NCBI RefSeq assembly: GCF_000426605.1
Contig: NZ_AUFR01000010.1
Location: 1 to 64,000, forward strand
DNA: 64,000 bases
Reading direction: 5' to 3'
Source of the DNA: Propionibacterium acidifaciens DSM 21887
GTDB taxonomy: Bacteria; Actinomycetota; Actinomycetes; Propionibacteriales; Propionibacteriaceae
Shown here: one piece after another, positions 17,648 through 29,082 of the stretch
How the letters are laid out: each line of letters begins with the position of its first letter
Position numbering within the stretch: the first letter of the stretch is position 1
Notes under the pieces: model-generated
Database searches by the model: none
The model's input: only the letters and a program-made list of their open reading frames with translations
Told to the model about the DNA's origin: nothing
Position numbers and translations under genes: made by a program

Positions 17648-17929
17648 TCAGGCGCCGCCTGCGCTGAAGATGTCGCTGGAGATCTGCTGGGTCTGCTGCT
17701 GGAGCTCGTTGATCTGCTCGACCATCTGCTTCAGGGCGCTCGACAGCGACGGCCACGTCTCGTTGCTGAACTTGTCGGCCAGCGGGCCGTCCCAGTTGCT
17801 CTTGTCGCACAGGACCTGGCCCTGGGTCTCCAGGCCGTTCAGCTGATCCGTCAGACCGCCATCGGTGATGCTCTTGATCTGCGTGATCGCGTTCTGCGCA
17901 GCCTCAGTCGAAAGTACTCGACCGCTCAT
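17648..17929 (-). CDS. WXG100-family (ESAT-6-like) protein
   Basis: This 93-aa protein is predicted to be a helical hairpin. Helix 1 spans about 8-38, the turn carries the W-x-G motif (NWDGPLADKF), and helix 2 spans about 56-90 with Q/E-rich heptads. Length and motif position fit WXG100 proteins, which are small substrates exported by EccC/EssC ATPases of type VII secretion. ATG 17929 has GGAGG upstream; a longer frame to 18139 is spurious. A single Cys (C40) is present in the turn region. It sits 247 bp downstream of the FtsK-domain ATPase gene on the same strand. It may have its own promoter, and it is closed by a strong terminator, so it could be expressed above the rest of the locus. No second Esx partner is adjacent. 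Confidence 0.85.
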   Translation of the reverse strand: MSGRVLSTEAAQNAITQIKSITDGGLTDQLNGLETQGQVLCDKSNWDGPLADKFSNETWPSLSSALKQMVEQINELQQQTQQISSDIFSAGGA

Positions 17930-18082
17930 CGTGCCTCCATCTGTCAAGGGGTGGTGTTGAGACGCCCCGGCCGGAACGCCCGTTCTCACGACCATAGGGC
18001 AGATCACCGCGTCGACGCCACCTCGGCGGCCACGTTGCGAACCGGGGAGCCGACCGCCCCGACCGCTGTCAAGAGCAACGAA

Positions 18083-18100
18083 ATGCCTAGTCAAAGGCAT
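18083..18100. promoter_or_regulatory. small dyad upstream of the WXG100 gene
   Basis: ATGCCT (18083-18088) and AGGCAT (18095-18100) are separated by 6 bp, within the 247-bp gap between the ATPase and WXG100 genes. On the reverse strand a perfect TTGACA -35-like hexamer lies at 18072-18067, but there is no convincing -10 at 16-18 bp. It suggests a separate promoter or operator region for the WXG100 gene; evidence is weak. Confidence 0.3.
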
Positions 18101-18176
18101 ATCATGTAGGCTCAGGGAAAACACGGCGACAACCCCCATCCTCCCCTGACAATGATCGCGGGCGCCATGGCCGGAC

Positions 18177-21100
18177 TCACCGGGCCGTCGGTCCGGCGGT
18201 CTGGACGAGTTCGACGGTGCCGCTCATGCACATGTACCCCCGCCCGATGGTCACTGGCACGGTCGCCCGACGCGGCAGCCGGGCACCCAACAGGTCGCCG
18301 TCGTAGTCGACATTGGGCTGGAGCAGAATGCCGCAACGCGACTTGCGCAGGGTCTTCGTCCAGTGCGAGTAGAGACTGCGCAGGTCATCGGAACGACCGG
18401 CGGCGACGATGTGCAGGGTGGGCATGCCCGACTCGATGAGCGAGTTGATGGACTTGTCGCTGTCGTCGAACTGCTCGGCGTCATCGATGAGCAGCAGCAC
18501 CTGCTCCGTGGCGAGCCGCAGCTGGGCGGTGACGGCCGACACGCCGTCCCTTCCGACGGACACCTGGTCGAGCAGGGGCGAGTCGACGAGCGGGGAGCGG
18601 CGCATGCACAGGCCCCACACGCTCAGCTCGACGCCATCGCGGGCCGCGGCGGCCCTGGCGACCTCTGCCACGGCGAGCAGCACGGTGGACTTCCCGCTGC
18701 GGGCCGGCCCCGCGACGAGCATGTGCTCGCCCTCGTAGGTCTCCAGCGCGCCGACCGTCAGGTCGGAGCCGCGCAGGCCGATCGGAAGGCGCCACGGCTC
18801 GCCGGTCAGCTGCGCCGCGTCGAGGCAGTCGATGACGGCGACCTCAGTGGGCAGGGTCGCCACGACGCTGCGCTTCGGCTCCGGGCTCCCCCAGCGGCCG
18901 CGGACGAGCCCGACCGCCGCCTCGACGCCGCCGTGCGGGGTGGCGACGTGGGTCTGGAGCTTCGTCTCGGCGCCGACGCAGCGGCCCGGCACCGGGGGCG
19001 GGGCCTCGATGGCCTTGATGCCGCTCAGCGCGTAGTCGTAGCGGTCGGCGAGGTGGAACAGCCAGCGCTGGGTGGTGACCTCGTCGACGGCGGAGGGGAT
19101 CGACTTGGCGCGGCTGGTGGCCACGGCCGTCCAGATGCCCAGTTCGGGGCCGTCGGCATAGACGCGGTACAGGCTGTCGAGCAGGGCCATGCCGTCGATG
19201 TCCTGGTACTCGTCGCGCAGAGTCGCCAGGCCGTCCAGCAGGAAGACGATGCGCCGGTGGTCGCCGGTCGGATCGGCCTTGCGCCGGTCGAGTTCGTTCT
19301 TGAGGTGGCGCAGCAGCCGCGTCTGCTGCTCGCGGGAGCCCGAGCCGGACCCGGCGTAGCCGATGGTGTGCGGCAGCGCCTGGAGCGGCGCCAGGTCGCC
19401 GGCGCCCATGTCGAGGATGATGAGGTCCATCTCGTCGGGCGGCAGCTCGTCGGCGAGGGCGAGCGCCACCGTCATGAGGGTGGTGCTCGTGCCGCTGCCC
19501 GGGATGCCGAGGAACATGGCGTTGCCGCGGCTCATGTCCCAGTGGGCGAGGACCTGGCGCTGGTGGTCGGGGTCGTCGGACAGTCCCAGGGCGACACGCG
19601 TGCCGTCGGTGCCGCCCACGACCGGCTGCTGGGCCTCCTCGACCTGTCCGCCGGGCGCGTCGGCCGCATCGAGCCCATCGTCGGCGGTGAAGCCGGCCAG
19701 GTCGACGCGGGCGCCGAGCGGGGTCGGCCAGACCGGCCTGGGCGATGCGATGCCCAGATGGTCGGAGGCCTCGACGATGGCCTCGATCATGAGGTCCATG
19801 TCGGCTTCGGTGACCTCGGCGCCCTTCGTCCCCCCGAAGGAGACGCTCCCGCCGGGGGCGCCGAAGACGACGTCGCGGTACTCGATCTGGACGGCGTCGA
19901 CGGCCTCCGCGCGGCCGGTGACCAGCGCGGTCTGCACCGGCGTGATGTCCTCCTGGCCGAGCTTGACCCAGGAGCGGCCCTTCTGGGATCGGCTGATCGC
20001 GGCGGCGTGCGGCACGCCGATGACGTTGTTGGAGTCCTCCTTGCTCTGCACCCGCAGGGCCACGCGCAGGTTCGTATTGGCGAGGATGTCGTCGTTGACG
20101 ACGCCGGCCGGACGCTGGGTCGCCAGGATCATGTGGACGCCGAGGGTGCGGCCGACGGCGCCGATCGAGACGAGCGAGGTGAGCACGTCGGGGAAGTCCT
20201 TGGCGAGCATGGCGAACTCGTCGACGACGAGCAGCAGTCGCGGCATCGGCTCGGAGGGATTGGTGGCCAGATAGGCGTCGAGGTTGTCGACGCCCTCCCC
20301 CGCCGCGGCGAACATGCGCTGGCGGTAGTCCATCTCGGCCTCCAGGGCGCGCAGCGCGCGGTCGGCCAGCTGCTCGTCCAGGTTCGAGATGGTGCCGATG
20401 GTGTGCGGCAGCGCCTCGAGGGGCTTGAAGGCCGCACCGCCCTTGAAGTCGATGAGGATGAAGGTGAGCTTCGTCGGGTCGTTGCGGGCGGCGAGGCCCG
20501 AGATGAGCGACCGCAGGAACTCCGACTTGCCCGAACCGGTCGTGCCGCCGACCAGGCCGTGCGGGCCGTCCCGCACCAGATCGAGCTCGAACGGGCCGTT
20601 CTCGCCGATGCCGATCGGGGTGGAGGTGCCCCGCGAGTGGGCCCACAGCTCCTCGATCCCCCCGGGGGTGATCTCGTCGATGCCCAGCAGCGGCGGCAGA
20701 CGCACCAGCGAGGGCAGGGCGGCGCCGGGCACGACGAGCTCGGGGTCCTCGAAGCGCGACAGGGCCACAGCGGCCTCGCGCGCGGTCCGCAGGTCGATGC
20801 CGGCCAGCACCGCGTCGTCAATGGTCGTGCGGGTGCTGGGGTAGGTGACGACGCCGGCGCCGTCCTCGCGCACCTCGACGATCGTCGTGCAGGCCGCGGG
20901 CAGCTGCTCGACGGCCGAGGCGATGACGATGCCGGGCACGTGGTTGACGCGCTTGCCATCCCGGTCGGCGGTCGCGCCCCGGGCGTGGCCGAGCAGCTCG
21001 CGGGCGGGCGCCTCGCGGCCCTCCAGGAGCACGTCGGAGTCGATGACGAGGAGCACCTCGGGCACCGGATGGCCGTCGATCTCGTCGCGCAGGGAGCGCA

Positions 21101-22496
21101 GCTGGGTCTCCGAGCGGGACCGCTCGCACGACAGCCAGCGGTCCTCGACGCCGCCGAGGCAGCGGGTGTGGGGCAGCCATGTCGCCCACTCCCAGGCCTG
21201 CTGGCGGCCGGGGTCGCAGTAGACGCCGATGGACAGGTCGGCCGGACCGGACTGCACGGCGGCTTGGACGACGAGCGAGCGGGCCACCGCCAGGACGTCC
21301 TCGCGTTCGCCGACGACGCCGACGACCCCCGAGTCGGCCAGGTCGGCCCGGATCGGTGCCGCGGTGACTCGGCTCGCGTCGATCAGCGCCTTCACGTCGT
21401 CATCGAGATGGCGCGAGGCGTTGCGGTCGACGGGCACGGTCCAGTCGCTCGTCCCGGTCCCGGCGTGCAGGCTCAGGAAGTCGGGGTGCTCGGGACGGCG
21501 CTGCCACAGCGTCGTCGCCGGCAGCTCGGCGATCCGGACGAGGGTGGCCGGGTCGGGCGAGGCGCCGCGGAGCCGTTCGCGCTCCTCGCGCACGGCGTCG
21601 GCGAGGTCGGTGGTGAACTGCTCGCAGGCCTTCGCGAAGCGCTCGTCCTCCTCCTTCCTCTCCTTCTTGGAGCGGCGCTTCTGCTCGATCCACTGGAAGA
21701 CCGCCATGAACGGGCTGAGCATCGAGATCATCGCGTAGCGGGGGTTGCCCATGACGACGACCATGCCCACGGCGAGGACGATCGGACCCAGGACGGTGGC
21801 GACCGAGAACTTGCTGGAGCTCGTGACCTTCTTGCGCTCGGGGGGCACGAGCTGCTCGGGCGGGGCGGGCTGGCCCGGGCGCGGCGGGCGGTTGAACGGG
21901 ACCGTGCCGGCGCGGGTCTGGTTGTGGAGCGATCCGGGACGCGGGGCGAGGGGCTCGGAGCCCTCCTTGCGCAGCAGCACGGTGGCGCCGCCGACGGTGA
22001 TCAGCGCGTCGCGCTCCACGAGGACTCCCTCGTCCTCCTCGACGCGGATGCCGTCGCCGAAGGTGCCGTTCGTGGAGCGGCAGTCGGTGACGCGCAGCCC
22101 CTCATCCTCGCGGACAATGCGGGTGTGCTCCCACGAGGCGCTGGGCGAGTCGATGACGATGTCGGCCTGCGGGGCACGACCGATGACGAGGCGGCGGCGC
22201 AGCGGCACCGGGACGGCGGCCCCGGCGTGCATGCCGCCGGTGAGGGTCGCCGTCCAGCCCTCGAGGTTGGCCGGCGGGCGCACCGGCTCGGAGCCGATCG
22301 TGCAGCCCTCGAGCAGGGTGACGTCGTCGATCCTGTCGGACGCGCCGCAGCGCACGTCGTCGACCCAAACGCTCTCGTCGTCGCCGGGGCGCTGCTGGCC
22401 GGCCGCCTCGACGAGATCGGCCAGGCAGGCGTCCGGCGCGAACTTCGTGAGGTCGATCTCGTGCGCGGTCGGGCCCGCCGAGACGATCAGTCGCAC
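18177..22496 (-). CDS. FHA-FtsK type VII secretion ATPase (EssC/EccC-like)
   Basis: This 1439-aa protein starts with about 75 residues of unassigned N-terminal sequence. An FHA domain follows (about 98-175) with GR106-107, S121/H124 and NGT143-145, the phosphothreonine-binding residues. Two membrane helices lie at about 231-249 and 254-272, and three FtsK/SpoIIIE ATPase domains follow. Domain 1 is intact: GTTGSGKS at 651-658, DFKGG at 683-687, VVDE at 757-760. Domain 2 has a degenerate P-loop, GIPGSGTST, with Thr in place of the Lys. Domain 3 has GPARSGKS at 1263-1270 and LLLIDDAEQ. The order FHA-2TM-3xATPase resembles EssC of Firmicutes, while DFKGG is EccC-like. It would power export of WXG100-type substrates. 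The start is GTG 22496 with GGGGAG upstream. The adjacent kinase could phosphorylate the FHA ligand. Confidence 0.9.
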   Translation of the reverse strand: MRLIVSAGPTAHEIDLTKFAPDACLADLVEAAGQQRPGDDESVWVDDVRCGASDRIDDVTLLEGCTIGSEPVRPPANLEGWTATLTGGMHAGAAVPVPLRRRLVIGRAPQADIVIDSPSASWEHTRIVREDEGLRVTDCRSTNGTFGDGIRVEEDEGVLVERDALITVGGATVLLRKEGSEPLAPRPGSLHNQTRAGTVPFNRPPRPGQPAPPEQLVPPERKKVTSSSKFSVATVLGPIVLAVGMVVVMGNPRYAMISMLSPFMAVFQWIEQKRRSKKERKEEDERFAKACEQFTTDLADAVREERERLRGASPDPATLVRIAELPATTLWQRRPEHPDFLSLHAGTGTSDWTVPVDRNASRHLDDDVKALIDASRVTAAPIRADLADSGVVGVVGEREDVLAVARSLVVQAAVQSGPADLSIGVYCDPGRQQAWEWATWLPHTRCLGGVEDRWLSCERSRSETQLRSLRDEIDGHPVPEVLLVIDSDVLLEGREAPARELLGHARGATADRDGKRVNHVPGIVIASAVEQLPAACTTIVEVREDGAGVVTYPSTRTTIDDAVLAGIDLRTAREAAVALSRFEDPELVVPGAALPSLVRLPPLLGIDEITPGGIEELWAHSRGTSTPIGIGENGPFELDLVRDGPHGLVGGTTGSGKSEFLRSLISGLAARNDPTKLTFILIDFKGGAAFKPLEALPHTIGTISNLDEQLADRALRALEAEMDYRQRMFAAAGEGVDNLDAYLATNPSEPMPRLLLVVDEFAMLAKDFPDVLTSLVSIGAVGRTLGVHMILATQRPAGVVNDDILANTNLRVALRVQSKEDSNNVIGVPHAAAISRSQKGRSWVKLGQEDITPVQTALVTGRAEAVDAVQIEYRDVVFGAPGGSVSFGGTKGAEVTEADMDLMIEAIVEASDHLGIASPRPVWPTPLGARVDLAGFTADDGLDAADAPGGQVEEAQQPVVGGTDGTRVALGLSDDPDHQRQVLAHWDMSRGNAMFLGIPGSGTSTTLMTVALALADELPPDEMDLIILDMGAGDLAPLQALPHTIGYAGSGSGSREQQTRLLRHLKNELDRRKADPTGDHRRIVFLLDGLATLRDEYQDIDGMALLDSLYRVYADGPELGIWTAVATSRAKSIPSAVDEVTTQRWLFHLADRYDYALSGIKAIEAPPPVPGRCVGAETKLQTHVATPHGGVEAAVGLVRGRWGSPEPKRSVVATLPTEVAVIDCLDAAQLTGEPWRLPIGLRGSDLTVGALETYEGEHMLVAGPARSGKSTVLLAVAEVARAAAARDGVELSVWGLCMRRSPLVDSPLLDQVSVGRDGVSAVTAQLRLATEQVLLLIDDAEQFDDSDKSINSLIESGMPTLHIVAAGRSDDLRSLYSHWTKTLRKSRCGILLQPNVDYDGDLLGARLPRRATVPVTIGRGYMCMSGTVELVQTAGPTAR

Positions 22497-22558
22497 AGTG
22501 CTTCACTCCCCTTCGCCGACGCGGCCGCCGCGCCGTCGGGCCGCCCGAGGGCGACCCC

Positions 22559-23836
22559 TCAGCCGTTCGTCGTCGTCCTGAACCAGACGAGATTGCGGGT
22601 GGCGCTGTCCGGGCGCAGGCCCAAATCCTGCGAGGTCGCGCTGAGCGCGTGCACGGAGGCGTCGGGCAGGCCGGCGTGGTTGCCCAGGTCGAGCGCCGCT
22701 CCGGCCAGGCCGGCGCCGTGGTCGGGCCTGAGCCCGTTCATGGCCTCGGCGACCTTGCCGGGTTTCGTGCTGCCGGCCGCGGCGGCGGCGTCGGCGAGGA
22801 CGACGACGGCGTCGTGCGAGGCGACGTCGGCGGCCTGGGAGACCTCGTTGAAGCTCCGCTCGCCGGACAGGTCCTTGGTGTCGGGCTGGGACGCCACGAC
22901 ACGCACGCCGGACAGATAGGCCGAGACGGCATCGCCGTCGGCGTCGCTCGTGAGGGCGGCGGCATCGCCCGTGTCGGCGCCCGCACTGAGCAGCGGCGCC
23001 GACAGCGAGGCGCCGCTGTCGACGAGCGACTGGGAGAACCGGGAGCTCAGGGCGTCGGGGGTGCAGATGATCGGCACCGTGACACCGGCGTTCTGCAGGC
23101 CCGCGACGGCCGAGCCCAGGCGCGACGCCTGCCCGGAGACGACCACCGAGTCGGCGCCGGACGACTCGATCCTGCCCTCGACGGTGGACGCGAAGTCCTC
23201 GGCCGAGGCGTCGACGCTGTCGACGTAGGCGATGCCGTCGACGCCTCCCCCGCCGGCGTCGACGAGCAGCGGGCTCGTGGCGCTCTGGGAGGCGAGGGCG
23301 TCGCCGAGTCCGCGGCGCGTCTGGCCCGCGCTCGGCCCGGTGATCCAGGCGTCGGCCCCGAGCGAGTCGGTGGACTGCTCGTACGGGGCGATGACGGGCA
23401 TGTCGAGCTCATCGGCCTTGGCCAGGGCGGCGTCGATGTGGTCGCCACTGGTGGCCATGACGATGCCCATGACTCCGGCGTCCGACAGGGCCTGCACGGC
23501 GTCCGCCGCCTCGGCCGAGTCCCCCCGGTCGTCGACGGTCGTGAACTCGACCTCCGTGCCGCCGAGCCCGAGGCGGTAGGCGGCGACCTCGGCGCCGTTG
23601 GCGTTGTCGGCCCACTGCGATCCCTCGAGCTCGCCGGAGCCGAGACTCACGATGACGCCGATGTTCAGGTGCGAGGGGACGCCGCTGATGCGCAGTGCCA
23701 GCTCGGTGGGGTGGGCCGGCGTCCCGCCGGACCCGTCGTCCTGGCCGCCCCGGTCGCCGCTGCAGCCGCTCACGCCGAGCGCCACGGCGAGGACGAGGGC
23801 GGCGGCCCGACGGCCGCCGGGGGGGCGGGCCCTCAT
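22559..23836 (-). CDS. lipoprotein with periplasmic-binding-protein-like fold
   Basis: This 425-aa protein has a lipoprotein signal peptide with lipobox LGVSGC (Cys25), so it should be anchored to the outer face of the membrane. The body shows alternating alpha/beta units like type I periplasmic binding proteins (Leu/Ile/Val receptor family). Examples are LNIGVIVSLGSGEL at the start, GVMGIVMATSGDHIDAALA, SGADSVVVSGQASRLGSA and ASHDAVVVLADAAAAAG. Its ATG overlaps the stop of the 992-aa secreted protein gene (ATGA), and the FtsK-domain ATPase follows after 62 bp. A branched-chain amino acid role is unlikely because no permease genes are present. Within this locus it may sense a ligand or act as an envelope component. 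That is an inference from context. Confidence 0.7.
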   Translation of the reverse strand: MRARPPGGRRAAALVLAVALGVSGCSGDRGGQDDGSGGTPAHPTELALRISGVPSHLNIGVIVSLGSGELEGSQWADNANGAEVAAYRLGLGGTEVEFTTVDDRGDSAEAADAVQALSDAGVMGIVMATSGDHIDAALAKADELDMPVIAPYEQSTDSLGADAWITGPSAGQTRRGLGDALASQSATSPLLVDAGGGGVDGIAYVDSVDASAEDFASTVEGRIESSGADSVVVSGQASRLGSAVAGLQNAGVTVPIICTPDALSSRFSQSLVDSGASLSAPLLSAGADTGDAAALTSDADGDAVSAYLSGVRVVASQPDTKDLSGERSFNEVSQAADVASHDAVVVLADAAAAAGSTKPGKVAEAMNGLRPDHGAGLAGAALDLGNHAGLPDASVHALSATSQDLGLRPDSATRNLVWFRTTTNG

Positions 23837-26811
23837 CGGGAGCTCTCGATCGAGAAGGTGTAGACCGAGCCGGTCGTCCCGCCGCTGGGCTTGCGCATCT
23901 GGAACAGCGGCAGCGCGTCGAGCCGCTCCAGCGCGGCGCTCATCTGCGCCTGGCGCAGCAGCAGACCGCCCAGATCGGCGCTGCGCACGTTCGCGTAGCC
24001 GGTCATGGTGCCGCTGGCGACGGCCAGCTGGGTGTCGGCGGCCTGGGCCAAGGCGGCATTCTTGCCGAGCGAGCCGAGCAGACCCGAACCGGCCGCCTCG
24101 GGATCGCCGATGTCGGCCAGCAGCTTGGCCATGTCGTCGCCGAGCAGCGCGTTCGCACCGGCGAGGTCGGCCGCCGATTGGTCGACGGAGTCGGCCACGG
24201 ACTGCTGGGCCTGCTGGGTGGCGCTGTCCATGGACTGCTGGGCCTGCGTGTAACCGTTGGCCAGTTGCTGGTTCTGGGCGTCGATGGTCGACTTGGCCTG
24301 GTCGGTCATCTGCTGGGCCTGCTGGTCAAGGGCCGACCGGTCGAAGACGTCCTGGTCGGCGGACTGGCCGCTGCCGTCCTTGGCGGAGCCGATCCGGCGG
24401 ATCTGCTCGTCGAGGGCGCCATCGCCATTCTTCTGGGCCAGCTCGGCGGCGGAGATCGCCTGCTCCAGTGCACTGGGCTGCCCGTCGAAGGCGTTGACGC
24501 TGTGGTTGAGCTTCTCGGCGGTCGAGCTGAGCTCGGCGGCCATGTCGTCGAGGCTGCTGGACTGCCGCTGCATCTCCCCGGCGCTGTCGGTCAGCCTGGC
24601 CATCGCGGCGTCCAGCTCGCCGTCACCGGCCTGTCCACCGGCGTTCCCGGTGGCCGTGGAGGAGGGCGAGGGGGACGCTGAGCCCGTCGAGGGCGAGGGG
24701 GACGTCGGGGAGGCGGAGGCCGCTCCCCCGGCCTGTCCGCCCGCGGTCAGCGCGTCGTAGTCGGACCTGAGCTGCTGGTAGGTCGCGGTGGCGTCACTGA
24801 GCGCCTTGCCGGCGCCGCCGGTCGTGTCGTTCCGGTCGAGGGTCCTGCTGAGATCGCCCCACGTCGCGCCCTCGTCGGCGAGCAGCGCCTCCACGGACGT
24901 GGTCTGCGCGTCGCCGGTCTGCGCGTCGCCGTTGCAGTCCTTGGTGCTGAGCAGCGGCATGAGCTTCGCTCGGTCGGCGGCGCTCATCTGGCAGACCTGC
25001 TTCGTCACGTCCCCGAGTCTTGCCGAGGCCGAGTCGTTCGAGGCCTTGCCCGCATCGGCCTTCGCCTTGGCGGCGTCGATCGCAGTGCCCAGCGCGGTGA
25101 TCCGGGTGTTCAGGGCGTCGATGTTCGCGCCCAGCGCGGCGACCTGCGGGGTCGCGGGGTCGACCCGGGCGGAGTCGTCGGGCAGGGCGTTCTTCACGGC
25201 CTGGACGTCGCCGACGACGGTGTTGGCCTGCGCGAGCGCGCCTCCGGCGGCCGTGGCGAGGCTCGAGGCCTGCTGCGCCGTGTCCTGGGCCGATCCCTTC
25301 AGCCCGTCGACGGCGCTCCTGGCGGCCGTGGTGAAGTCGGAGATCGCGGCGTTCAGCGACTGCTGGCCCTGGTAGAGGGCGCACGTCGCGGGCAGGGCCT
25401 CGGAGGAGGCCGAGCCGGTGGCGCTCGCCTCGGAGGGCCTGCTCGACTGCCCGTCGCCGGCCTCCTGGCCGACGGCCGCGCCCGAGGACGGCGCCTTCGA
25501 GGACGGCGTTCCCTGAGGGGTCTCGTCCCCGGTCGGCCCGGACGCCCCACTCGTGGGTTGGGGGGCGGCTGGCGTGGCGGCCGCCGGGCAGTTCTCCTCG
25601 TTCGGCTCCGACGGTCCGATGGCGGCCTCGAGGGCCGCCCGGACGCTCTCGCGCTGGTCGTCGCCGGCATCGGCGTAGGCCTGGAGCTGGGCGGCGATGT
25701 TCTGCACCGTCGCGTAGACGCTGGTCGACCGGCCGTCGGGCGCCGCGCCGCTCGTGTCGCCGAGCATCGCGCTCATGGCCTCGACACTGCTGGTCAGCTG
25801 GGCGAGGGTCTGCGACGAGCTCTGCGCCGAGGCGCTCTGCAGCTCGCCTTTGAGGCCGTCGAGCTGGCTGCCGACCGAAGTCATCGCGCCGCTCAGGTTC
25901 TGCGCATTGGACTGCATGTCCGACAGGGTCTGGGCGCCGATCGTCTCGGCCGAGGTGTCGAGGCTGGAGCGCACGTCCTGGATCGTCGAGGAGGTCTGCG
26001 CGAGCACCTGGTTGACCTGGGCGGCGAGCTCGATGGTGCGCTCCTCGAGGTCCATCTGGGCCCTCATCTGCGACGAGGCGTCCAGCAGGGAGTTCGACGA
26101 GGAGTCGGTGGCCAGTCCCGGCTGCACCGAGATGGAGAAGTCGGGGCTCGAGAAGTTCTTGGCGTCGACGACAAGGCGCAGATCGGCGCTGGCCGGCATC
26201 ATCGGCGGGGCCAGCAGGTCGGCCCACTGCACCTGGGTCCTGCCGTCGGAGTCCATGCTCACCAGGCCGTTCGTCGTGTCGCCATCACCCTCGACGATGA
26301 CGTCGCCGGCGCCCGTGCCCTCGAGCGAGGCCGAGGCGACGACGGTCAGCGGCGCCCCGACGAGCGCGCTGGTGCTGTAGGAGTTGCCGTCCATGTCGTA
26401 GCTGACCTGCTGGGCGACGAGCGTGAGGTTCTCGATCGAGACGTCGATGACGACCTTGCCGCTGTAGCCGTTGAGCTCGGACAGGTCGCTGCCGGACGAG
26501 TCCGCGGTCCGGTAGCTCGTGGTGACGCGCGCGGGGAGGTCGTCGGCGGTCTCGGACGGGGAGAACTCGTCGGACGAGGAGCTGCTCGACCGGTTCGACC
26601 TCGTCGTGATGCTCGTGGCCCTGACCGCCGTCATCGTGCCGTCGCCCGACATGGTGACGTCGACGGCGCGCAGCAGGGAGTCGCCCTGGCCCAGCGCCGT
26701 GCCGGGCCTGATCGCCATGCCCGCCACCAGGGCGGCGATGGCCGCCGCGGCGAGACCGGCGCGCGTCCGCCGTGACGAATGGATCAGACGGCTGCCACGA
26801 TGAGTGCCCAT
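23833..26811 (-). CDS. large secreted Ser/Ala/Gln-rich helical protein, type VII locus
   Basis: This 992-aa protein has a signal peptide at about residues 1-40 (basic start, hydrophobic AGLAAAAIAALVAGMA, then PGTALG). Residues 45-255 look beta-rich. A very long region (about 255-940) is predicted helical and coiled-coil, with many Asp-Ala-Gln-Ser repeats. It is broken by Ser/Pro/Thr/Gly-rich linkers near 455-505 and 715-750. I see no membrane helix after the signal, no LPXTG and no enzymatic motif. By position it resembles the extracellular part of YueB/EsaA or YhgE-type proteins of Gram-positive type VII loci, but without their membrane helices. ATG 26811 is supported by AAGGA; ATG 26883 is upstream in frame. 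Its stop overlaps the lipoprotein start. Confidence 0.65.
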   Translation of the reverse strand: MGTHRGSRLIHSSRRTRAGLAAAAIAALVAGMAIRPGTALGQGDSLLRAVDVTMSGDGTMTAVRATSITTRSNRSSSSSSDEFSPSETADDLPARVTTSYRTADSSGSDLSELNGYSGKVVIDVSIENLTLVAQQVSYDMDGNSYSTSALVGAPLTVVASASLEGTGAGDVIVEGDGDTTNGLVSMDSDGRTQVQWADLLAPPMMPASADLRLVVDAKNFSSPDFSISVQPGLATDSSSNSLLDASSQMRAQMDLEERTIELAAQVNQVLAQTSSTIQDVRSSLDTSAETIGAQTLSDMQSNAQNLSGAMTSVGSQLDGLKGELQSASAQSSSQTLAQLTSSVEAMSAMLGDTSGAAPDGRSTSVYATVQNIAAQLQAYADAGDDQRESVRAALEAAIGPSEPNEENCPAAATPAAPQPTSGASGPTGDETPQGTPSSKAPSSGAAVGQEAGDGQSSRPSEASATGSASSEALPATCALYQGQQSLNAAISDFTTAARSAVDGLKGSAQDTAQQASSLATAAGGALAQANTVVGDVQAVKNALPDDSARVDPATPQVAALGANIDALNTRITALGTAIDAAKAKADAGKASNDSASARLGDVTKQVCQMSAADRAKLMPLLSTKDCNGDAQTGDAQTTSVEALLADEGATWGDLSRTLDRNDTTGGAGKALSDATATYQQLRSDYDALTAGGQAGGAASASPTSPSPSTGSASPSPSSTATGNAGGQAGDGELDAAMARLTDSAGEMQRQSSSLDDMAAELSSTAEKLNHSVNAFDGQPSALEQAISAAELAQKNGDGALDEQIRRIGSAKDGSGQSADQDVFDRSALDQQAQQMTDQAKSTIDAQNQQLANGYTQAQQSMDSATQQAQQSVADSVDQSAADLAGANALLGDDMAKLLADIGDPEAAGSGLLGSLGKNAALAQAADTQLAVASGTMTGYANVRSADLGGLLLRQAQMSAALERLDALPLFQMRKPSGGTTGSVYTFSIESSR

Positions 26812-27096
26812 TGCGTTCCTTCCAGGGGGTGGGAGGCCTCGGCGCGGCCGCATCCCGCGCACCTCGACCGGGAAAACACCCATCGAGTCTACGGGATCAT
26901 CATGGCCCGTCCACAGCGTTCTCCCAGTGAGACGGAGACGGCCCGTCCGGTCGGACCACGGACGAGGAGCAGCCGGGCGGCGCTCCCAGAGAGACGGGGA
27001 CGCCCGCCGCAGCCCTGCCCCGATCAGGGGGAGGCACCGGGGCCCTCCCGCGAGGAGGGGACGGTCCCGATCCGATCACCTCCGGAGGGGTGCGGC

Positions 27097-29082
27097 TCAG
27101 CTCCCGTGCGCCGCGATCTGGAAGCTGCTGCTCGTGAGGTCCGTGAAGTTGCCCACCTGGGCGTCGACCGTGCACGAATCGGCCACCTGCTGGGCCGCCA
27201 CGTTGAGGCCGTCGCTCGTGACGGTGAGCGCGCCGGCGCATCCGTCCGAGAAGCGCACTCCGGACTCCCCTCCCGCGACGGCCTCGAGCATGGAGCTGGG
27301 TTTGCCGGTGGACGGGCTCTTGTACAGGGGGTTCAGGTCGTCCTGCCCGCTGGGCCACACCGGCAGCAGCGAGATCTCCAGGCCGGACTGGTTGACGACC
27401 TTGTCGGGGGTCTTGACGGTGATGTCCTGCAGGCGCTGGACCGGGTAGTGGGTCGACTCGACGCTCGAGTCCGTGACGGCCGCCGTCGTCGCGGCGGCGG
27501 CCCGGTCGAGCCAGGCCTGCACCGCCGACTCCTCGTCGCCGTCGTCGAACGTCACGGGCACCTGGGCCTGCACCTGGAGGTTCTGCCCCGCCGGCACCTG
27601 CCCCGGGTCGACGGACCAGCCGCAGTCGACGCTCAGACCGCTCGTGGTCGTCAGGTTGTGGCCGGCCCGGGCCCCGCCGAGCCAGGTGACGTCCGGGCAG
27701 GCCGCGCCGTCGGCGGCACCGGGGACGACTTCGAGGAACGGCCCTTCCAGGGGGGCCTTCTGCGCCGTGTAGGTGATGGTCAGGTTCACCGACCCGGACG
27801 AGGCGTCGTAGCCGGCCTCGCGCCGGATGCCCAGCCCCGTCGGGAGGGCCTGGTCCTGCTGGCTCGCCTTGACCGGACCGGAGTTCCTGCGGTGGGGCGG
27901 GAAGAGGTGCCCGCCGCCGCGGAGGATCGCGAAGGCGCTCACCCCGACGAGCACCATGGCGGCGCCGATGATCAGGGACACCATCCGCTTGCCGGGACGC
28001 CTCGGGCCGGGCGCGGATTCGGCCCCCGTCGTCCCCAACTGCACCTGTTCCGGCTGGTGCGGCGTGACGGGCCGCAGCCGAGTGGCACCGGAGGGGGCGT
28101 CGAGCTCGGGCTCGGGGCTGATGTCGACGACGGCGGTGGGACGCGACTCCGCCGCGGCGGATTCGACCCCGGGGCTCCTCACCACCGTCATGGGGTGGGC
28201 GCCCTCGAACTCCTCGGGCGCCTCCACCGGCTCGAGCGCAGGCAGCTGCGCGACGAGGAGCACCAGCTCCCGGCAGGAGGCCGCGGCCTCCTGCGCGCCG
28301 GGTCTGCGCCCGGGGTCCTTCTCGAGCATCCCCGACAGCAGCTCCCACAGCGGCTCCGGCACGTCGAGAACGGGCACGCGGGACTGCACGTGTCGGTGGG
28401 CGACGGCGTAGTCCGTACCGGGCCCGGCGAACGGCGTACGCCCGGCGAGCAGCTCGTAGGCCATGATGCCGGCCGAGTAGACGTCCGACGCGAAGCCGGC
28501 CCGGCCCGAGTAGATGAGCTCCGGACTCATGTACTCGGGTGTGCCGATGAGTCCCGTCGTGGACTTCGCATCGCCCATCATCACCGAGGCGATGCCGAAG
28601 TCGCTCACCCTGAGGGCGCCCGGATCCTGCGGACCCCACTCGGGGTCGAGCAGCACGTTGTCGGGCTTGACGTCGCGGTGCACCACGTCGTGCTCGTGCG
28701 AGGCGGCCAGCGCGTCGAGGACGGCGGCCATCGCGGCCAGCGCCGTGCCCGGCGGCAGGGTCCGGCTCGTGTCGAGCCGGTCGCGCAGCGATCCCCCGGC
28801 GACGAAGTCCATGACGATCGCCAGCTGCTCGCCCTCGACGACGAGGTCGCGGAAGCCGACGATGTTGGGATGCCTCAGGGACTCCAGGACGGCACGCTCC
28901 TGGATGAACCGCCCCACCAGGTCGCGGTCGGCGGCGTGCTGCGGGTAGAGGAGCTTGGCGGCCACGCGTTCGCCCGTGCGCAGGTCGGTGGCGGCCCAGA
29001 CCGCACCCGTGGCGCCCTGCCCGACCTTCTCGACCAGACGGTACGAGGCACCCAGGGCGTCGTCGAACTTCTTACCGACCAT
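27097..29082 (-). CDS. membrane Ser/Thr protein kinase with extracytoplasmic domain
   Basis: This 661-aa Hanks-type kinase has its kinase domain at residues ~14-275: glycine loop GQGATGAV 21-28, Lys43 (VAAKLL), HRD 135-137 (VVHRDVKPDN), DFG 161-163, activation segment TGLIGTPEY and SPE. An acidic/Pro-rich juxtamembrane stretch with several Thr residues follows to about 330. There is one transmembrane helix at ~335-355, then an outside domain of about 300 residues with three to four cysteines. PASTA repeats, typical of PknB, are absent. ATG 29082 has GGAGGAAG upstream, so the longer N-terminal frame is not used. It heads the minus-strand secretion locus. It could phosphorylate a Thr that the ATPase FHA domain binds; that link is inferred. 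Confidence 0.85.
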   Translation of the reverse strand: MVGKKFDDALGASYRLVEKVGQGATGAVWAATDLRTGERVAAKLLYPQHAADRDLVGRFIQERAVLESLRHPNIVGFRDLVVEGEQLAIVMDFVAGGSLRDRLDTSRTLPPGTALAAMAAVLDALAASHEHDVVHRDVKPDNVLLDPEWGPQDPGALRVSDFGIASVMMGDAKSTTGLIGTPEYMSPELIYSGRAGFASDVYSAGIMAYELLAGRTPFAGPGTDYAVAHRHVQSRVPVLDVPEPLWELLSGMLEKDPGRRPGAQEAAASCRELVLLVAQLPALEPVEAPEEFEGAHPMTVVRSPGVESAAAESRPTAVVDISPEPELDAPSGATRLRPVTPHQPEQVQLGTTGAESAPGPRRPGKRMVSLIIGAAMVLVGVSAFAILRGGGHLFPPHRRNSGPVKASQQDQALPTGLGIRREAGYDASSGSVNLTITYTAQKAPLEGPFLEVVPGAADGAACPDVTWLGGARAGHNLTTTSGLSVDCGWSVDPGQVPAGQNLQVQAQVPVTFDDGDEESAVQAWLDRAAAATTAAVTDSSVESTHYPVQRLQDITVKTPDKVVNQSGLEISLLPVWPSGQDDLNPLYKSPSTGKPSSMLEAVAGGESGVRFSDGCAGALTVTSDGLNVAAQQVADSCTVDAQVGNFTDLTSSSFQIAAHGS

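Follow-up and report, generated by a model that had tools for sequence, protein, structure and literature searches.

The published subtype scheme for type VII secretion systems (T7SSa–j), which used a Brevibacillus EssC query, gives Actinomycetota T7SSa and T7SSd only (PMC11217815), and Rhs toxins have been proposed earlier as cargo of type VII secretion systems (T7SSs) in Listeria and Olsenella (PMC10327511, PMC11217815). Here, we analyze a 64,000-nucleotide stretch of Propionibacterium acidifaciens DSM 21887 (contig NZ_AUFR01000010.1, positions 1 to 64,000; hereafter the window) and propose that five of its genes are likely to form a dedicated T7SS of an undescribed Actinomycetota subtype, with Rhs toxins as cargo, a switch made of a kinase and an FHA domain, and an outside module made of an exported protein (SECR) and a lipoprotein (LIPO). 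The gene combination is absent from the published scheme and the subtype is apparently unnamed; our search of the open-licence literature turned up no T7SS reported to include a lipoprotein of the binding-protein type.

T7SSd, described from Olsenella and Bifidobacterium (Garrett et al. 2024, PMC11217815), resembles the window locus in its Actinomycetota hosts, its WXG100 protein, an ATPase whose FHA domain has an intact phosphothreonine site, a transmembrane Ser/Thr kinase (TsdD), the lack of a separate YukD gene, and Rhs toxins nearby. However, the window ATPase belongs to another clade and appears to carry a fused ubiquitin-like domain, and in place of TsdI (Ig-like, with a C-terminal transmembrane segment) and TsdH the window has SECR and the binding-protein-like LIPO. 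No TsdH-like small gene with a single transmembrane segment was called between 17648 and 29082, although very short genes could escape calling. T7SSb likewise has an ATPase with N-terminal FHA, two transmembrane segments and three ATPase domains, a kinase-fold membrane partner, and antibacterial substrates; it differs in having two FHA domains where the window ATPase has one following the probable ubiquitin-like domain, and a pseudokinase where the window kinase is predicted to be active, with its residues intact. No EsaA, EssA or free EsaB was recognized at the window locus, with no genome-wide search made for EssA or EssB. With T7SSa (ESX) the locus shares an EccC-family motor, a WXG100 protein and presumed substrates that are modeled as structurally similar to EspB, but EccB, EccD, EccE and MycP are absent from the window. 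Outside secretion, the GlnH–GlnX–PknG–OdhI/GarA pathway of Corynebacterium and Mycobacterium provides an actinobacterial precedent for signaling from an external binding lipoprotein through a Ser/Thr kinase to an FHA protein (PMC9769921, PMC6069109). This is a functional analogy only, as the output of that pathway is metabolism, whereas at the window the FHA domain belongs to a putative motor for secretion.

Organization of the locus

The five genes all lie on the minus strand, at the places given in an earlier note made from the sequence alone, and in the order kinase, SECR, LIPO, ATPase, WXG100:

27097..29082, minus strand: KIN, membrane Ser/Thr kinase (Pfam Pkinase, E 1e-53); start at the M of MVGKKF at 29082
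27097..27840, minus strand: KEXD, extracellular domain of the kinase with four conserved cysteines (ortholog alignment; boundary approximate)
23833..26811, minus strand: SECR, exported protein, 992 aa from the ATG at 26811 (open reading frame open to 26883)
23833..23836, minus strand: four-base ATGA overlap of the SECR stop and the LIPO start (gene coordinates)
22559..23836, minus strand: LIPO, lipoprotein with a type I periplasmic-binding-protein fold, HAAT-like (lipobox VSGC and profile matches)
18177..22496, minus strand: ATPase with a probable ubiquitin-like domain, FHA, two transmembrane segments and three FtsK/SpoIIIE-type domains
22263..22496, minus strand: probable N-terminal ubiquitin-like (YukD-like) domain of the ATPase, residues 1–78 (profile matches)
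21990..22187, minus strand: FHA domain of the ATPase, phosphothreonine-site residues intact (G106, R107, S121, H124, N143; Pfam FHA, 2.5e-12)
20106..20603, minus strand: core of the first FtsK/SpoIIIE domain, Walker A intact (GGTTGSGKS; Pfam, residues 632–797)
17648..17929, minus strand: WXG100 protein, 93 aa, WDG motif (ortholog alignment; start at 17929)

The four-base overlap between SECR and LIPO is present as noted earlier. The open reading frame of the WXG100 gene opens at 18139, while the conserved protein begins at 17929. Its score against Pfam WXG100 (20.7) falls below the cut-off of 27.3, but orthologs from other genera are 46–59% identical to it in a seven-sequence alignment. The locus encodes a WXG100 protein that is conserved over genera despite the low Pfam score.

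The ATPase belongs to an Actinomycetota-only clade

The ATPase matches FtsK_SpoIIIE at 1.5e-45, above the Pfam cut-off. Its matches to the NCBIfam models of EssC (1e-144) and EccCa (2e-108) both fall under the curated cut-offs, indicating that it is neither a standard EssC nor a standard EccC. In an alignment of 12 ATPases, including distant ones, the phosphothreonine-binding residues of the FHA domain and the Walker A motif of the first ATPase domain are invariant. PADLOC matches to the kinase and the ATPase were set aside as generic domain matches.

We placed the window protein in a tree of 51 ATPases, with T7SSb represented by Listeria and Streptococcus and the T7SSd-like references drawn from Coriobacteriia. 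It fell within a group of 30 members, all from Actinomycetota, that is split from T7SSa EccC (including a second EccC of the same genome, on contig C21), T7SSb and T7SSd/e with 100% support in the Shimodaira–Hasegawa-like approximate likelihood ratio test (SH-aLRT). The earlier note had described an EssC-type motor with FHA and two transmembrane segments in an actinomycete, within a variant type VII-like locus; both points are supported.

YukD is a free protein in T7SSb and is fused to EccD in T7SSa. Residues 1–78 of the window ATPase, ahead of the FHA domain, are collinear from end to end with a set of YukD sequences in hhalign, with 2 of 100 column shuffles scoring as high. The best five PDB matches to a profile of the N-termini of the window clade were all ubiquitin-like and all weak; with a profile of the N-termini of the whole actinobacterial group, 2mlb, a ubiquitin fold, was matched at E 3.7e-5 and ISG15 at 0.012. 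SAMP was another of the ubiquitin-fold matches. Pfam YukD matches two members of the ATPase group, at E 0.016 at best, and its sole match in the P. acidifaciens genome lies inside EccD on contig C21. Judging from these comparisons, YukD is probably fused to the N-terminus of the window ATPase as a ubiquitin-like domain. The absence of YukD reported earlier thus stands for a free-standing gene, but not for the domain, which the motor itself probably carries.

The genes recur together across genera

We searched 197 genomes of the order for ATPases of the window type, defined by a score above 700 bits or at least 40% identity, and found them in 16, many more genomes having other EccC or EssC types. 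In neighborhoods read with profiles built from orthologs, SECR, LIPO and the ATPase were adjacent in most loci examined, spanning several genera, with the kinase nearly always alongside; Curtobacterium flaccumfaciens UCD-AKU has the same cassette of SECR, LIPO, ATPase and kinase. The partners are constant among loci and gene order is variable. The five genes are conserved together, contrary to the outcome that the earlier note had named as a refutation, and their recurrence in many genomes argues that the arrangement is not due to chance.

Searching these 197 genomes for the lipoprotein gave 20 carriers, six of which (family f3) have orthologs of SECR, LIPO and KIN. The ATPases of two of these six genomes, placed on the tree, belong to another sub-clade than the window protein, suggesting that SECR–LIPO–KIN behaves as a unit able to pair with more than one ATPase lineage. 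Across the phylum, LIPO was found in 1 of 396 genomes, that of P. acidifaciens alone, an absence that carries little weight as four candidates were scored per genome. In three genomes (G116, G139 and G152; loci L189, L190 and L191) SECR–LIPO–KIN is kept and the adjoining ATPase is fragmentary, through decay or sequencing errors. Bifidobacterium was considered as a host of related clusters, but a 16S stretch specific to this genus was present in 0 of 12 genomes, a result that is no more than suggestive in a search with no positive control.

Rhs toxins track the ATPase

Rhs genes adjoin the cluster in several relatives (G066, G072, G048, G150 and others), and in Actinoplanes they adjoin the WXG100 gene. 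These proteins contain DUF6531 and RHS repeats, and complete ones also HINT and nuclease ends. In the P. acidifaciens genome itself, DUF6531 is found at nine places and the Rhs N-terminal domain is matched eleven times, none of these within the window; its Rhs proteins carry DUF6531, RHS repeats, HINT and, after HINT, an NS_2 endonuclease. About ten Rhs genes or remnants are scattered over contigs C1, C2, C5, C10, C13, C23, C31, C44 and C57, with near-identical N-terminal domains, differing ends and some broken copies, a pattern that resembles a recombining toxin reservoir.

The Rhs N-terminal domain occurs in 15 of the 16 genomes with a window-type ATPase versus 2 of the other 181 (Fisher p 2e-19, uncorrected for relatedness). 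The contrast holds within six genera (g1, g2, g3, g4, g7 and g27), and because these same genera include species with neither, the link reflects more than shared ancestry.

The 290-aa N-terminal region (RhsN) is predicted to form helical hairpins whose first turn carries an FxG, at a predicted local distance difference test score (pLDDT) of 95–98. The first six structure matches to this model are to EspB, an ESX-1 substrate, at Z 11–12, and Foldseek alone returned nothing significant. Aligned to WXG100 by hhalign, the FxG falls on WxG, at a probability of 6%. In Actinoplanes, the first RhsN hairpin is a separate gene beside the Rhs and WXG100 genes and matches Pfam WXG100_2 at E 1e-4. Given the adjacency in relatives, the co-occurrence with the ATPase and the EspB-like or WXG100_2-like N-terminal region, Rhs toxins with such a region are likely the best substrate candidates.

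A kinase domain that travels with SECR and LIPO

The earlier note had described a membrane Ser/Thr kinase lacking PASTA repeats, and the window kinase fits this description: besides its Pkinase domain, which is cytoplasmic, it has one transmembrane segment at about residue 421 of the open reading frame and an extracellular domain of about 245 aa, with no Pfam match to PASTA. The HRD and DFG catalytic residues are invariant in eight orthologs. SECR has an N-terminal hydrophobic segment, a beta-sandwich head, then long helices and a C-terminal strand; a C-terminal transmembrane segment is present in 0 of 20 orthologs. A structure search returned generic beta-sandwich and coiled-coil matches only, the model being of low confidence outside the head. 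The solute-receptor fold proposed earlier for LIPO is backed by profile matches to HAAT-family binding proteins (4obb and 4nqr at E 6e-8; with 4gnr, 6e-8 to 4e-7), the match to Pfam Peripla_BP_1 (1e-4) falling marginally below the cut-off. By profile comparison its kin are amino-acid-type binding proteins. LIPO is anchored, by a lipobox or a transmembrane segment, in all examined orthologs with an intact N-terminus.

SECR had been called EsaA-like, but hhalign against EsaA of Listeria and Streptococcus gave a probability of 0.2%. We also rejected SECR as a TsdI, with the same probability against a TsdI-like protein of Rubneribacter. KEXD is present at every locus with SECR and LIPO where a full kinase gene is readable, whereas the kinases of G111 and Actinoplanes sp. 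RD1 lack it, and the same two relatives lack SECR and LIPO. The joint absence of the three in these relatives suggests a module for sensing or gating, as opposed to a replacement for EsaA. Since both relatives retain the same ATPase type and presumed Rhs substrates, the case for SECR and LIPO as stand-ins for missing envelope parts is weaker.

Other T7SS-like loci and neighboring features

Contig C21 of the same genome carries a second locus (L040:1485-15791) with an EccC that has no FHA domain, an EccD with a YukD domain, an FHA protein, a WXG100-like protein, DUF6177, DUF6507 and an 835-aa candidate substrate. It is T7SSa-like and separate from the window system, and the only place in the genome where EccD was found. 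EccB had no match in the genome, in a search whose control was silent. Of the complete classical ESX locus with its own EccC that the earlier note had considered as counter-evidence, C21 thus supplies the EccC and the YukD-bearing EccD, but not EccB, with that silent control. The window system is not refuted by this locus, having an ATPase clade, a WXG100 protein and correlated substrates of its own.

In the same family as P. acidifaciens, L055:1445-6495 and L052:2485-6420 hold another FHA-ATPase cluster with a membrane kinase. L055 adds a PP2C phosphatase and FHA proteins, recalling the kinase and phosphatase of T7SSc and T7SSe, which the published scheme lists for Bacillota only. In Streptomyces-like and Humibacillus genomes, FHA-type ATPases stand beside Tad-pilus-like genes (L050:6701-17837 and L061:1221-10573), with a T2SSE-type ATPase in L050, an arrangement as reported for T7SSg/h in Bacillota.

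The remaining genes of the window look ordinary and chromosomal. An ARAGORN tRNA-Ala (cgc) at 22747-22835 on the plus strand lies antisense within the LIPO gene and is probably a false call. An Actino-pnp RNA leader (RF01688; 42186-42242, minus strand), an ordinary actinobacterial feature, precedes a pnp-like gene.

A proposed mechanism and its alternatives

From gene content, conservation, clade, domain make-up and toxin co-occurrence, which are read from sequence, we infer export, a phospho-switch and sensing. The ATPase, with its ubiquitin-like and FHA domains and two transmembrane segments, would be the motor, and the WXG100 protein a small substrate or co-factor of it. The main cargo would be the large Rhs polymorphic toxins, whose genes lie elsewhere in the genome; their export would depend on an N-terminal region that may fold like two WXG100-type hairpins fused together, probably for attack on neighboring or rival bacteria. 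Control of the motor probably lies with the membrane kinase, through threonine autophosphorylation or phosphorylation of a partner; the resulting phosphothreonine would be bound by the ATPase's FHA domain. Outside the cell, SECR and LIPO would act together with KEXD, most likely to sense a ligand or the state of the envelope and so license secretion. A narrower version, with release of Rhs toxins on demand, has LIPO sensing an extracellular solute and triggering, through SECR and KEXD, a threonine phosphorylation that the motor's FHA domain reads; it is a tentative proposal that we rate as possible rather than likely.

Several observations weigh against a dedicated Rhs-exporting system of this kind. 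Two genomes, G063 and G159, have remnants of the Rhs N-terminal domain without a window-type ATPase, and the Rhs genes of P. acidifaciens do not adjoin the cluster; its C21 locus might export the Rhs proteins instead. As a match to RhsN, EspB outscores ferritin bundles by only about 1 Z unit, a margin within helical-bundle noise. Relatives without SECR and LIPO indicate that the core can do without this module.

We also considered SECR and LIPO as a structural envelope conduit comparable to EsaA, EccB or TsdI, with the kinase mainly stabilizing the complex as the pseudokinase EssB does. The length, helicity and export of SECR, the anchoring of LIPO in all examined orthologs with an intact N-terminus and the tight coupling of both to the ATPase gene are all consistent with a conduit, but profile comparison links SECR to neither EsaA nor TsdI, the kinase residues are intact, unlike those of EssB, and G111 and Actinoplanes do without either protein, making a conduit unlikely. 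Membership of the published T7SSd would account for the shared WXG100 protein, FHA-ATPase and membrane kinase, as well as the lack of a free ubiquitin-like gene, the large exported protein and the Rhs toxins (PMC11217815). We regard it as very improbable, since the Coriobacteriia T7SSd-like ATPases group with Bacillota T7SSe-like ones outside the window clade, SECR bears no relation to the Ig-like TsdI of Rubneribacter and ends without a transmembrane segment, there is no TsdH-like gene, and LIPO is foreign to T7SSd. Finally, a regulatory or cell-envelope kinase system, with the ATPase and WXG100 protein as remnants, would fit the low WXG100 profile score, the absence of the classical membrane partners and the pairing of a kinase with a binding protein, which is typical of signaling. 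Strong conservation of the three ATPase modules and of WXG100 over genera, and gain and loss in step with Rhs toxins, leave this barely credible.

Implications

The tree shows an Actinomycetota-only radiation of ATPases, with probable ubiquitin-like domains and FHA domains, that the published T7SS list does not cover, and the window locus is a compact and well-conserved case of it. With five genes, one motor and named candidate toxins, the locus would offer a minimal system for asking how T7SS activity is switched. It also bears on the role of the ubiquitin-like component for the motor, to which that component is apparently covalently attached here, and it newly names a T7SS-linked family of Rhs toxins in actinomycetes.
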